Translations under genes and position numbers: made by a program
DNA from: Thermoclostridium caenicola
Lineage (GTDB): Bacteria; Bacillota; Clostridia; DSM-8532
Assembly (NCBI RefSeq): GCF_900142095.1
Contig: NZ_FQZP01000023.1
Coordinates: 1 to 37,907, forward strand
Direction: 5' to 3'
DNA: 37,907 nucleotides
Part shown: piece by piece, positions 15,607 through 37,275 of the stretch
Numbering within the stretch: position 1 is the first letter of the stretch
Layout of the letters: each line of letters begins with the position of its first letter
Notes under the pieces: model-generated
The model's database searches: none
What the model was told of the DNA's origin: nothing
What the model saw: the letters and a program-made list of their open reading frames with translations, nothing else

Positions 15607-15638
15607 AACCGGGTCTCCGCCTACATGGGAGTTGTGAC
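15607..15638 (-). repeat. Degenerate leader-distal terminal repeat
   Basis: Positions 15613-15638 match the consensus exactly, but 15607-15612 (AACCGG) replace GTTGCA. Terminal repeats usually decay at the end far from the leader, so this places the leader on the right, next to cas13a. Confidence 0.85.
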
Positions 15639-16435
15639 GTGGCCGGCGTGTTTCGCAAGAGCCCCAAATCCGAGTTGCAGTCTCCGCCTACATGGGAGTT
15701 GTGACCCTGATGGTGAAATAGCCTATCAGCGTTTTGTAGAAGTTGCAGTCTCCGCCTACATGGGAGTTGTGACTTTCTGCCACGGTTGTTATCACGATCT
15801 ATCTCTACGTTGCAGTCTCCGCCTACATGGGAGTTGTGACTTTTTCAGTATCGCTAATGCAGCTCTGTAATTATGTTGCAGTCTCCGCCTACATGGGAGT
15901 TGTGACCATGCTAACAGTCCATATATCACAATCTACAAACGTTGCAGTCTCCGCCTACATGGGAGTTGTGACGTCGTTGTTGAAAAGATTGATTTTGCTG
16001 ACGACAGTTGCAGTCTCCGCCTACATGGGAGTTGTGACACACCCTCGCGGACATTACCCTGAGTGGTAATAGTTGCAGTCTCCGCCTACATGGGAGTTGT
16101 GACCCGTGTCGACAAGCAGAACCCCAGGGTCGAGGTCGTTGCAGTCTCCGCCTACATGGGAGTTGTGACTTTATGACGGTCGAAGAAGTCACCAAGCACG
16201 CCCAGGTTGCAGTCTCCGCCTACATGGGAGTTGTGACTTGACCAACTGGTGGCAATTTTAAAACTTGAAAAGTTGCAGTCTCCGCCTACATGGGAGTTGT
16301 GACTCATCAAGCCAATAAGTTGTTTGTCGGTTTCCTCGTTGCAGTCTCCGCCTACATGGGAGTTGTGACTCCGCATGCCTGTGCATCCTTTCCAGCACTT
16401 CACGTTGCAGTCTCCGCCTACATGGGAGTTGTGAC
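15607..16435 (-). CRISPR. Type VI-A CRISPR array: 13 repeats, 12 spacers
   Basis: A 32-nt repeat recurs every 65-68 nt. Repeat starts are 15607, 15674, 15742, 15809, 15875, 15941, 16007, 16072, 16138, 16206, 16272, 16338 and 16404; twelve copies are identical and the first is degenerate. Spacers are 33-36 nt. In crRNA sense (minus strand) the repeat begins GTCACAACTCC and ends GGAGACTGCAAC. CTCC and GGAG can pair into the short hairpin expected of a Cas13a 5' handle. I recall the Herbinix Cas13a repeat as having the same length, a GTAACAA-like start and the same CTGCAAC end. Direction is set by cas13a directly upstream on the minus strand, the degenerate repeat at the far end and the terminator beyond it. 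Confidence 0.97.
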
Positions 16436-16589: not shown

Positions 16590-19500
16590 TCATCCTCTCG
16601 GGTATACCATCAGCGCTTTCAACGTGTCAATAAACCTCTCCCCGTGACTTGGAATTTCAATGCCGCTCAACCTGGAACCTTTCAGATGCACGATCTTGTC
16701 GGCAGTCACATCCTCTATCTTCAGCATTCCTCCTTTCTCCACGGTGAACCGGATTTTGACTTTATGCCTATCAAATATCTGCTGCAAGGTCTTGGTGACG
16801 GCGTTCATGCGTTTCTGGTCATAGGACAGGAGAAACCTCAAACGGTTGATGTAATCTTCCATCACGCTGCAGGTTTTGCCAGCCTCCAACCGCCATCCGT
16901 TTTTCCGCATCAGATCCAGATGGGCAACATCATTCCGCACACCTAAATACTTAGACCCCTTATTCTCAGGGAAATAAACGCTTTCAAAGGCATTCATGTT
17001 TTCGCCTTTCAGCGTATCCACCAGATTGCGAATAATGTTGCCTTCAGAGAAGATATCTCTGACATCTTCCTCCTTTATCCCGTCCAGTTTGCCCTGTCTG
17101 ACCCACGCCAAAAGGAGGAAGTACATATCCCGCTCCCAGTCCTGGACAAACCCCACCCATCGGGAGAGGATTTCAAGATTGAGGACGCATATTTCATACA
17201 ATGAACTGAAGGACAGGTTTTTCACGGCCTGGTTATAGTCCTCAAGCCGCCGGAGAACCTTCTCATACAGTTTGCAGTCCTCCTCCGTAAATCGGGACGG
17301 GGATTCGGCGTACTTCCTATGGAGCCGCTGCAAAAGGCATTGGGCCTGTTCAGCGGAAGAGATATCCGCTCCATTCTCATCCTTCACGTTCCAATGTTTT
17401 TCCGACCAGAGCAAGTAATCTCTTTTGAGCGCCTGCTTGTGGCTGGCAAGCACCTTTTGGTACACTCCCATAAGCCCCGAGCGCAGCAACCGGCTCATGT
17501 TCCTCCGATATACCGGCGTGTTGTTGTCGCTCTGAAGATAAAAAGCCTCATAATTTTTCATGTTTCCTTCAATAAAGTCTTCAAACGCTTCTTTAGCCCG
17601 TTTCCCCCATACTTCCTCCGCAAACTGGGGCTCCGGTTCCGTCAGCTTGACCAGTTCGGTCAATTCCTCAATCTGCCCGGCTATCCTTATTTCTTCACTG
17701 AAATTGCTCTCACCCTGCCAACTGGCCAGGGATGTCCGATAACGGATCATCTGCTGCTGAAGCTCTCCCAGTTCCCTTTCGTCCAGCAGGCGCAGGACGG
17801 GATAGAGCACCAGGAGATGCCCTTCCGGTTCTTTTTCGTCTATAGATGTTTTCAAATCCACCGTTTTGCTTTCTTTTACCCATTTCTTCGCCGCTTCGGC
17901 ATCTTTCCTGGGGCTCATGATCTCAAGGTATTCTTCGCCATAGTGCGCCTCCAGGAAATCGTTAAAGGCCTCGGCAAAGATATCGAGGATAAAGCGCTGG
18001 GCATAATCCGTTTTTTCCTGTGCCAGTTCCCGGCTCTCCCTTTCGGTTTCGGAGATCCTCCGCTGCAATTGCTTCATGAGATCGGAAAGCGGCATGCCTT
18101 CATGATACAGCTCTTCTATAACGCTGTATCCATGGGCCTTACCTTGATTTGGCCCTTGGCCTTCAGACAGCTGCCTGTTTCTTTCCAAAACCTTATGGAT
18201 CTTGCCGGTCACCAGGGTTTCATCCTTCTGCACCTCCGGCAGGAAATGGTGCCTATATATCAGCAGCAGAAGGTTCCGCAGGGCACGCTGGGCATCCACA
18301 TCGGTATCGAATTCAACGTTGTTTTCCACATCGGCTGCCGATTCCGCATAGGCCTCCACAGCCCAGTTGAAATGGGTATCGGCGCTATCCCCAGCCGCAA
18401 GCTGTCGGAACCATTTCAGCCGGTCGCCATCCTGCCCGTTCTGTCCGTTGGATGCCTCGGCTTTCATGCGTTCGCACTCGAACTCCCGGCGCAGATTTTT
18501 ACCACGCTCATAGACCCTCTGAAAGGACGGTGTCATCTGGATCTTGGCGCTGTACAGGAAAAACGCCGTCCCTTCTTTTTTGAAAATGCGGGATAATAGA
18601 TCCTCCCTGTAATACAGCGGAAGGTTCATGCTGCTGATTCTTTTGGCAAACGCCTTTTTGAGGTTTCTCCTGTCCAACAGGTAAATGGCCCGGAGCACAG
18701 ACAAATCCTCCGGTTTCACTTTATCGGCGATCCTTTTGAGCGCCTGTATCAAGGTCACATTTTTATAATGAAAGATATGATGTCTCAGCTCCCCGATGCA
18801 GGAAACGCACTCCGCCAGCAACTGGTTGCAGAGCTTCCGATCATCCCTGACGATGTGCCCGATCGCTTTGAAATCCGTTGTATCAGCCTGCTTATTGTCT
18901 GTTTCCTGTAATCCTTTTGCATCCTCCTTAATCTTTTCCTGCAATTCTTTCAGCGGGAAGAAGTCCTGCAGTTTTTCCTTGCAGGCCTCAACATCTTCAT
19001 GGGTATATTTATTCGTGTCTCTGAGAAATTTATCTCTGAAATCTTTAATCGGGTTTTTATTGCTCAAGATATCGCCGTCTTCAAACTGGTAAAAATAGCG
19101 CAGACGGGATATGGACCACAGCACGGCCGTCATGGCCTGCTTTTTTACCGCTTCATGGACCTGTATCCTTTGCAGCGTCTCGCTGTTTACCAAAAGCCTG
19201 CCGTCTTCCCCGCAGCAATATGCATAAAGCTTTCCATAAAGGATGTGCATCTGGGTACTCTGGTTGATCAGCCTGCGGCGAACGGCATTAGCCATATGCT
19301 TGGGTTCCAGCAGACGGGAAAGGGACGTCTTATCCTTGAGCAATTCCTGCCGCAGGCGGGCGCCCATCCGTTTTGTCCGGATGGGAAAATTGTCCTTAAA
19401 GTACTCCTGTACGGCCTGAAAGTAATACTTCAGATCCTGCTGTCGCGAGGGAGACTTCTCCCAAAGCTCCCGGAGATATTGCTTCAGGGCCTCATCGACC

Positions 19501-20267
19501 GCCATGGCTATGGAACGGGGTCGGCCTTGGCAACGGCTTATCTTTTCGTGCAGCGTTTTGGACAGCTTGTCAAAGTCGAATACTTCTTCCAACTCGCCTA
19601 AGAGCGGGTAGCAGTCGGTTATTCCTTTTGCCGGGTCCGCCGGCTTCATGAGCCCCAGCAGCCAGGCCGCACGGTCATTATTGGGTGTAATGCCGCCATC
19701 CTCTTGGATTCTCAGCGGTATTTTATTGTTCTTGATGGAATACCGGACGCGGTTGATGCGGTTTTCCTTTTCCTTTATTAATGCCTCCCGGATTTTGCCC
19801 AGTTCAGCTTTGGCCATGGCCTGCTTTAAAGGGTTTCCTTCTACCAGGTAAAACAAGGCATCGTTGAGGGTCATGGCGCCTTCTGGGGCGGTATACCTTT
19901 TACCGTATTCGGAAAGGGTACCGTCCAATTGCTTTTTCAGATTTTTAATCTCTTTTTCATTCTTGGGGCGCAGCTTTTCGTTCCTCTCCATGCTTTTCAT
20001 GATCTCCGCCACATCCGCACCCTGGCACAGTTTCTCCACCAGCTTGACGATCTCGTTGCTGTAGAATCTTTTGTCTCCCTTTTCGGGTGTTTTCAAAAGC
20101 CGGTTTCTCAGCGATCTTTCAAATGTATCCTGCGCAATATCATTAAACAGGGTATCGGTATAATCCTGCTTTCTGTCGTTCTGTGCCAGGAGCCTGCCGG
20201 AGTCCTCATCCCGGTAGAAGTAAAGCGGCGGATGATGCTCTCCCCATTTCCTTTTCGTGATCTTCAT
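16590..20267 (-). CDS. cas13a: Cas13a (C2c2), RNA-guided RNase of type VI-A CRISPR
   Basis: 1225 aa single effector that binds crRNA, cuts complementary RNA and then cleaves bystander RNA. The two HEPN catalytic motifs are intact: R495-X4-H500 (ELRHHIFH) and R1111-X4-H1116 (VRNDVAHL). Their 616-residue spacing compares with 576 in LbuCas13a (R472/H477, R1048/H1053). Stretches such as QDWERDMYFL near 1042-1051, LRNLLLLIYRHHFLPEV near 663-679 and LLSYDQKRMNAVTKTL near 1147-1162 are close to Herbinix Cas13a as I recall it. That identifies VI-A rather than Cas13b or Cas13d. The last of these aligns with the LbuCas13a R1079/K1080 processing pair and reads Q1151/K1152. GGAAGGGGG precedes the ATG by about 7 nt. 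It is the only cas gene in the window. Confidence 0.96.
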   Translation of the reverse strand: MKITKRKWGEHHPPLYFYRDEDSGRLLAQNDRKQDYTDTLFNDIAQDTFERSLRNRLLKTPEKGDKRFYSNEIVKLVEKLCQGADVAEIMKSMERNEKLRPKNEKEIKNLKKQLDGTLSEYGKRYTAPEGAMTLNDALFYLVEGNPLKQAMAKAELGKIREALIKEKENRINRVRYSIKNNKIPLRIQEDGGITPNNDRAAWLLGLMKPADPAKGITDCYPLLGELEEVFDFDKLSKTLHEKISRCQGRPRSIAMAVDEALKQYLRELWEKSPSRQQDLKYYFQAVQEYFKDNFPIRTKRMGARLRQELLKDKTSLSRLLEPKHMANAVRRRLINQSTQMHILYGKLYAYCCGEDGRLLVNSETLQRIQVHEAVKKQAMTAVLWSISRLRYFYQFEDGDILSNKNPIKDFRDKFLRDTNKYTHEDVEACKEKLQDFFPLKELQEKIKEDAKGLQETDNKQADTTDFKAIGHIVRDDRKLCNQLLAECVSCIGELRHHIFHYKNVTLIQALKRIADKVKPEDLSVLRAIYLLDRRNLKKAFAKRISSMNLPLYYREDLLSRIFKKEGTAFFLYSAKIQMTPSFQRVYERGKNLRREFECERMKAEASNGQNGQDGDRLKWFRQLAAGDSADTHFNWAVEAYAESAADVENNVEFDTDVDAQRALRNLLLLIYRHHFLPEVQKDETLVTGKIHKVLERNRQLSEGQGPNQGKAHGYSVIEELYHEGMPLSDLMKQLQRRISETERESRELAQEKTDYAQRFILDIFAEAFNDFLEAHYGEEYLEIMSPRKDAEAAKKWVKESKTVDLKTSIDEKEPEGHLLVLYPVLRLLDERELGELQQQMIRYRTSLASWQGESNFSEEIRIAGQIEELTELVKLTEPEPQFAEEVWGKRAKEAFEDFIEGNMKNYEAFYLQSDNNTPVYRRNMSRLLRSGLMGVYQKVLASHKQALKRDYLLWSEKHWNVKDENGADISSAEQAQCLLQRLHRKYAESPSRFTEEDCKLYEKVLRRLEDYNQAVKNLSFSSLYEICVLNLEILSRWVGFVQDWERDMYFLLLAWVRQGKLDGIKEEDVRDIFSEGNIIRNLVDTLKGENMNAFESVYFPENKGSKYLGVRNDVAHLDLMRKNGWRLEAGKTCSVMEDYINRLRFLLSYDQKRMNAVTKTLQQIFDRHKVKIRFTVEKGGMLKIEDVTADKIVHLKGSRLSGIEIPSHGERFIDTLKALMVYPRG

Positions 20268-36030: not shown

Positions 36031-37275
36031 GGTACCGTCAATAATTTTTCGCAAATTCATTTACCCGCCTGGTAGGCATCAGTTAACCAGCAGTTACTTT
36101 TGAACCATCCATGGCACCCAGTTCCTCAAGATGTCTCATACTCATATAACGCTTGGTTCCCCATTCTTTGCTTGCAACATACCTTAATCTTGCGCAAACC
36201 AGCATTAAAGCTGAATTCCCATCAGGAAAGGTGCCAACAACTCTGGTCCTACGCCTGATCTCCCGATTAAGCCGTTCGATGACATTATTACTCCGCAATT
36301 TGCTCCAATGGGCATAGGGGAATTCCATGTACGTCAGCGTTTCCTCGATGCCCTTTTCTATCTTAGCTGCCGCTTCTTTTAGCTTCATTTCCCGTAGCTT
36401 CTGGACTACACTCTGGGCCTTTTGCCTTGCGGCCTCTTTGTTCTCTTGCGCATGGATAGCCTTCAACATTGCAGCCACTTCTTTTACCTTGGAGCGCGGT
36501 GTAACCGTAAAGACATTCCGGTAGAAATGGACTGTGCATCTCTGATACTTTGCATCGGGAAAAACCTCATTTATTGCCTCCAGAAGCCCTAGACATTTAT
36601 CTCCAATGAATAATTGAACCCCTGTTAGTCCTCGCTCCCTCAAGCCCTGTAAAAAGCTCAACCAGCTTGCCTTGTCTTCTTTCATTCCTTCTGATGCACC
36701 AATCACTTCTCTATAGCCTTCTTCGTTAACAGCCATAGCTATGAGAATGGAGACGTTCTCGTATTCGCCGCCCCAGTTACGTTTCAAATACATTCCATCC
36801 AAGTAGACATAGAGGTATCTACTCTTCAATGGCCGGTTACGCCATGCGTCTATATGTACATATACCTTCTTGTTCAATTCACTTATGGTACCAGGTGGAA
36901 CTCTTGTCCCCCATAGGGCTTCGGTGATATCCTCAACACGCCGTACTGAAACTCCTGCCAGGTACATCTCTATTAATGCCTCTTCCACTGAACTCTCACG
37001 GCGTCGATATCGCTCTATTATGGCTGTCTCAAAAGCTATCCCTTTTAATTTAGGAATCTTTAACCTAACATTCCCTGATGTTGTGGTTAGATTTCTCTCA
37101 TAGTGGCCGGATCTATAGCCTTGCCTTTCTGAAGTGCGCTCATAGCGCTCTGCTTTGGTTAGTTCTGCTGCCTCTTGCTCCAATAGATTATTTAGAGTTT
37201 CCTCAACACTGCTACGGACTAATTCTTTTAACTCCTGCTTTATTACTCCTTCATTTAGCTGTATAATTTTATCTG
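36031..37275 (-). mobile_element. IS256-family insertion sequence, interrupted by an IS21-type element
   Basis: The transposase (36083-37275) is bounded on the left by GGTACCGTCAATAATTTTTCG (from 36031), which I take as the element terminus because similar GACxxTACC-type ends follow IS256 transposases. The other terminus should lie upstream of the transposase start, but the IS21-type left end begins there instead. It is therefore either displaced beyond the window or lost. Confidence 0.6.
36083..37275 (-). pseudogene. IS256-family transposase lacking its start codon
   Basis: The reading frame is open from the IS21 junction to the stop at 36083, about 397 codons. The product starts TDKIIQLNEGVIKQELKEL and continues with the family's AERYERTSERQGYRSGHY, the DDE domain (YVYLDGMYLKRNW with the first Asp, FIGDKCLGLLEAI with the second) and a C-terminal NNVIERLNREIRRRTRVVG. 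IS256 transposases typically begin M-x-DKIIQLNE, so only the first one or two codons are missing. No ATG, GTG or TTG is in frame until the TTG at 37183, which would lose about 31 residues. The enzyme is therefore probably silent or weakly made in shortened form. Confidence 0.8.

Follow-up and report, generated by a model that had tools for sequence, protein, structure and literature searches.

The closest known counterpart of the system considered here is the type VI-A system of Thermoclostridium caenicola with its effector TccCas13a, for which RNA-guided, RNA-activated RNase activity and tolerance of single mismatches across the spacer have been published; the sections of that work on which we draw had already identified the associated CRISPR array and used its repeat for crRNA design, and are silent on what the native spacers match, which is worked out below (PMC9282225). 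Within type VI, a further comparison is offered by the type VI-B system of Flavobacterium columnare, in which all natural phage-derived spacers are mRNA-targeting (n=19), pre-existing spacers targeting self mRNA are absent or depleted, and a DNA-targeting system resident in the same cell has been proposed to supply adaptation in trans (PMC8092290 and an earlier study cited therein). Among Cas13a systems, Leptotrichia arrays carry spacers that exactly match their own chromosome (PMC6914741), and nearly no spacers of reverse transcriptase (RT)-containing VI-A systems matched anything in a survey (PMC6753606). Here, a VI-A array with Cas13a is found together with a type I-C system in a thermophilic clostridium, and its assignable spacers fit the F. 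columnare picture in that those derived from phages are mRNA-targeting and those matching the host are not.

The window analyzed, i.e., the whole stretch of T. caenicola DNA under consideration, is 37,907 nucleotides long and contains a type VI-A CRISPR array (15607..16435, minus strand) in which 13 repeats, each 32 nt long, alternate with 12 spacers of 33-36 nt; these regular repeats and spacers lie beside an effector gene, cas13a (16590..20267, minus strand), consistent with the VI-A assignment. The 1225-aa product matches the NF038188 equivalog with 903 bits (cut-off 150) over residues 1-1220, and the protein chain of PDB entries 8ewg and 8h4u end to end, with 2783 bits over all 1225 residues and no difference among the residues printed. 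The depositors named the molecule of this chain Cas9, apparently in error; on the published description of the enzyme (PMC9282225), we take the chain to be TccCas13a, the same effector as encoded here. Two HEPN R-x4-H motifs, RHHIFH and RNDVAH, can be read in the translation and are predicted to be catalytic. Toward the other end of the window, a 366-aa ORF (36083-37183) resembles a transposase by eye.

The polarity of the array can be deduced from its repeats. The first bases of the repeat at 15607, at the array end distal to cas13a, are degenerate, and a sister species (G031), which has a syntenic VI-A array with identical core repeats, also has degenerate repeats in the two positions most distant from cas13a. 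Degenerate repeats far from cas13a in both species place the old end of the array there and the leader beside cas13a, and hence the array would be transcribed on the minus strand, co-directionally with the effector gene. Array polarity, gene direction and, indirectly, the target orientations described below thus all point to a minus-strand crRNA, which would carry the 3' tag ACUGCAAC. A Cas13a crRNA is expected to have a short repeat-derived stem-loop handle at its 5' end. Repeat folding was dropped as an uninformative indicator of the strand: the expected minus-strand stem (CUCC/GGAG with a 9-nt loop) appears in the centroid fold only, and the plus strand folds more stably (-10.9 vs -4.5 kcal/mol).

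Spacer 9 (16170..16205, crRNA on the minus strand) is flanked by the repeats at 16138-16169 and 16206-16237, and its plus strand, TTTATGACGGTCGAAGAAGTCACCAAGCACGCCCAG, encodes FMTVEEVTKHAQ in frame 0; the position, sequence and open plus-strand frame recorded for it in the initial annotation proved exact. An open frame of 36 nt is by itself uninformative, since two minus-strand frames, 0 and 1, are likewise open, and it is the peptide that carries weight. When IMG/VR was scanned with FMTVEEVTKHAQ back-translated to all synonymous codons, a single contig matched, IMGVR_UViG_3300010011_000078 (hereafter L002), with a chance expectation for the degenerate pattern of ~1e-6 hits if a search space of 5e10 bases is assumed, both strands counted. 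The protospacer (L002:591-626, plus strand) sits within a 279-aa ORF (48-887) that encodes RecT (PF03837, 137.6 bits over L002:48-884, cut-off 24; PHROG 148, RecT-like, 253.5 bits), and the presence on the same contig of genes for a terminase large subunit, an SPP1-type portal, SSB and a DNA methylase points to a tailed phage or prophage. Spacer and recT are identical at 33 of 36 bases, and the three differences are all synonymous third-codon changes, which correspond to guide-target mismatches A:C, U:G (wobble) and C:A at crRNA positions 34, 22 and 10, respectively. Random synonymous recoding of FMTVEEVTKHAQ with phage codon usage gave a mean of 28.9 identical bases and reached 33 in 0.9% of the trials, so that the match exceeds what mere conservation of the peptide would produce.

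Because recT reads in the direction of the spacer's plus strand, a minus-strand crRNA would be complementary to recT mRNA. The 3' flank of the protospacer, CAGTACAG, provides a C as the PFS and has 0 of 8 matches to the anti-tag. Among the features required of Cas13a protospacers, namely, a sense match within a gene, a non-G 3' flank (a flank rule that may not be TccCas13a's own) and no tag complementarity, the L002 site displays all three, its transcription being presumed. The initial annotation had attributed the spacer to a phage or prophage recT and considered its orientation functional. The near-identical, sense-oriented site in the recT of a phage, followed by C, agrees with the proposed origin, although the exact source phage was not found; as for function, the orientation and the flanks are correct, and activity as such is a prediction from sequence. 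Neither a perfect protospacer in another gene nor an antisense one was seen in IMG/VR (peptide pattern only), INPHARED, PLSDB, the T. caenicola genome itself or 391 genomes of the class. A perfect 36/36 site in recT was likewise not found in the IMG/VR scan, which demanded the exact peptide and would miss sites with an amino-acid change; a looser pattern, FMTxEEVxxHA[KQ], had no match in GTDB genomes, and BLAST of the whole array against INPHARED phages and PLSDB plasmids returned only noise. A self-targeting or prophage-derived origin of spacer 9 was rejected, as the host genome contains neither a second copy of the spacer nor recT. Taken together, these comparisons support the first interpretation of spacer 9 and confirm that the finding is real.

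Several other spacers of the array could be assigned. Spacer 6 (15973..16006, minus strand) is an exact 34/34 match to a phage ssb gene (IMGVR_UViG_3300010277_000144, L037:1217-1250) in the mRNA-targeting orientation; its earlier assignment to antisense recT of contigs L006 and L010, at 27/34, was rejected once a wobble pattern had produced the exact ssb site. Given that this 27/34 match is treated as chance, spacer 8 (16104..16137, minus strand) is assigned by its peptide motif only: its plus strand encodes RVDKQNPRVEV, a C-terminal motif of phage RusA resolvases, which would make it mRNA-targeting. This pattern had two hits only in IMG/VR, both in RusA genes, and the DNA match is that of a homologue (27/34 nt in contig L041). 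The leader-proximal pair, spacers 11 (16304..16337, minus strand) and 12 (16370..16403, minus strand; nearest to cas13a), exactly match the host genome at C13:4013-4046, within a shared mobile region, and at C15:1136-1169, within a 409-aa ORF that runs in the same direction as Tad/CpaF-like genes (identified by eye). For both, crRNA and matched gene share one sense, which would preclude pairing with the mRNA; thus, T. caenicola resembles Leptotrichia in having exact self-matching Cas13a spacers, which here are both in the non-mRNA-pairing orientation. Wobble patterns of spacers 1, 2, 7 and 10 had no hits in IMG/VR, and spacers 3 and 4 appear to be either non-coding or antisense. The C13 region that holds the spacer 11 site (C13:1-40000) includes a prophage with terminase, portal, capsid and tail genes, and shares 88-99% identity across about 37 kb with a region in a genome of another family (G268:C1:4338001-4398000), which suggests recent horizontal transfer.

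The array of the sister species points at the same group of phages. Its spacer 4 has its match in a phage gene for replication, located beside recT (33/35, contig L007), and its spacer 9 in a gene for a TROVE-like RNA-binding protein (31/33, contig L006), both in the mRNA-targeting orientation, and both contigs are relatives of the recT phage L002. Across the two species, all 5 phage-assigned VI-A spacers are mRNA-targeting and neither of the 2 self matches is, a 7/7 split with p = 0.008 if the orientations are independent and even, in a small sample in which spacer 8 is counted on a motif-level match and the sister-species hits are biased toward early genes by the clustering of the fetched phage sequences around recT. 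A codon-usage strand test, calibrated on held-out genes with 80% of fragments called correctly, was positive for 6 of the 12 spacers of the T. caenicola array, with a maximum-likelihood sense fraction of 0.43 (interval 0.06-0.81), i.e., no sense excess; leaving the self-matching spacers 11 and 12 out of this test is a post hoc choice. By the same test, the array of the sister species is strongly sense-coding, with a fraction near 1 (interval 0.75-1), and the control type I-C array yields 0.38 (0.24-0.53). In view of the small sample, the motif-level assignment of spacer 8, the recT-biased sequences and the lack of a sense excess in the T. caenicola array, a rule by which phage spacers are mRNA-targeting and self spacers are not is at most suggestive.

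The genome of T. caenicola encodes a single cas1, within a type I-C operon that is followed by an array of 98 repeats and 97 spacers. Two of these, spacers 74 and 75, match phage contig L006 (RecT 89% identical) at 33/34 and 35/36 positions, beside TTC, the sole mismatch falling on a base that does not vary within the repeat register; a further I-C spacer, also beside TTC, is similar to the rusA region matched by spacer 8, with 8 mismatches. Shuffled I-C spacers, used as a control, had no hits, and the cell's own DNA-targeting array thus independently points at relatives of the phage. Spacers 74 and 75 are adjacent in their array (C12:36000-52000), represent one sequence at 34 and 36 nt, and derive from a single site in a TROVE-like phage gene. 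At the six checkable VI-A protospacers (those of spacers 9, 6, 11 and 12 and two of the sister species), no consistent TTC/GAA motif was found on either side, so that, unlike in F. columnare VI-B, no motif is shared with the co-resident DNA-targeting system, and the TTC signature of adaptation in trans by the I-C machinery is missing, although the only cas1 in the genome is that of I-C. As a separate observation, an adenine methylase gene and its neighbor in phage contig L005 (9986-11566) have a homologue of 64% DNA identity in the host chromosome (C1:81150-82733), possibly a restriction-modification module shared by phage and host.

The reading of spacer 9 outlined above has to be weighed against several alternatives. 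That its likeness to recT is fortuitous has a precedent of sorts in the same array, in the antisense recT matches that spacer 6 gave on two contigs before its ssb site emerged; nevertheless, the probability of 33/36 is 4e-17 per position and 20 sets of shuffled T. caenicola spacers yielded no match with fewer than 9 mismatches across 569 kb, which makes chance a negligible explanation. A more serious contender is that the spacer captures only a conserved RecT motif and was taken from a different recT, be it of another phage, a plasmid or a chromosome, rather than from a relative of L002. Indeed, the motif [FY]M[ST]VEEV.KHAQ is a conserved feature of this RecT subgroup (alignment A1, 13 aligned), and several relatives match the spacer in the same register and orientation with 6-8 mismatches; in named genomes, the nearest relatives occur in clostridial MAGs (Peptococcaceae, Thermosediminibacterales) and in Caloramator australicus. 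However, the identity to L002 lies above the synonymous expectation, the F at motif position 1 occurs in L002 only among the 13 aligned RecT sequences, and the host genome lacks recT, all of which render a different source improbable. Were the crRNA instead transcribed from the plus strand, as the more stable plus-strand repeat hairpin might hint, the spacer 9 crRNA would share the sense of recT mRNA and be useless against it. The location of the degenerate repeats distal to cas13a in both species and the co-directionality of the array with cas13a on the minus strand argue against this, and plus-strand transcription would, moreover, turn both exact self matches into mRNA-targeting spacers and inactivate all five phage matches; we consider it very improbable.

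The remaining alternative accepts the recT origin and concerns only the meaning of the orientation: if spacers are taken up without strand preference, the sense orientation of spacer 9 is a coin flip that says nothing about function. The absence of a sense excess in the codon test of the T. caenicola array, the antisense or non-coding appearance of spacers 3 and 4, and the uptake of spacers from both strands by the F. columnare VI-B system in the laboratory (PMC8092290) are all in line with this possibility. It is at odds, however, with the uniform orientation of the seven assigned spacers, the strongly sense-coding array of the sister species and the likewise uniform natural VI-B arrays (19/19; PMC8092290), and on balance appears unlikely, if by no means negligible. 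Tentatively, and at slightly less than even chances, we suggest that the Thermoclostridium VI-A arrays have been sorted by selection, with uptake from both DNA strands and independent of the TTC motif of I-C, such that spacers from phage DNA-metabolism genes are retained if they target mRNA and self spacers only if they do not.

Returning to the recT origin, we consider it highly probable that spacer 9 records a past encounter with a tailed phage close to IMGVR_UViG_3300010011_000078, having been acquired from its recT gene, and that its minus-strand crRNA guides TccCas13a to the sense mRNA; the strand, expression, cleavage and protection are the inferred components of this scheme. The spacer would have come from the gene for the single-strand annealing recombinase RecT of a closely related phage and would be transcribed on the minus strand within the pre-crRNA. 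The resulting crRNA would direct TccCas13a onto sense recT mRNA, where pairing next to a non-G flank without tag complementarity would activate the HEPN nuclease, and the active nuclease would then cut phage and bystander RNA and halt the infected cell. The three mismatches could weaken targeting of the L002 phage in particular. LbuCas13a restricts phage whatever the timing or essentiality of the target gene (PMC9712115), and recT, therefore, needs no special role as a target.

The VI-A system itself was already known, and what is new is the assignment of targets to its spacers and the contrast in orientation between phage and self matches. Phage genes have been identified as the source of few natural Cas13a spacers, and the recT match, ordinary in kind, is a rare traced example. 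The array of a biochemically well-studied Cas13a thereby gains phage targets, namely, recT, ssb and a rusA-like gene, and the sister-species array aims at the same phage group, so that natural guides and their targets are now at hand for testing TccCas13a immunity. The contrast between phage- and self-derived orientations provides a small, checkable case for post-uptake selection in VI-A, parallel to that in VI-B.
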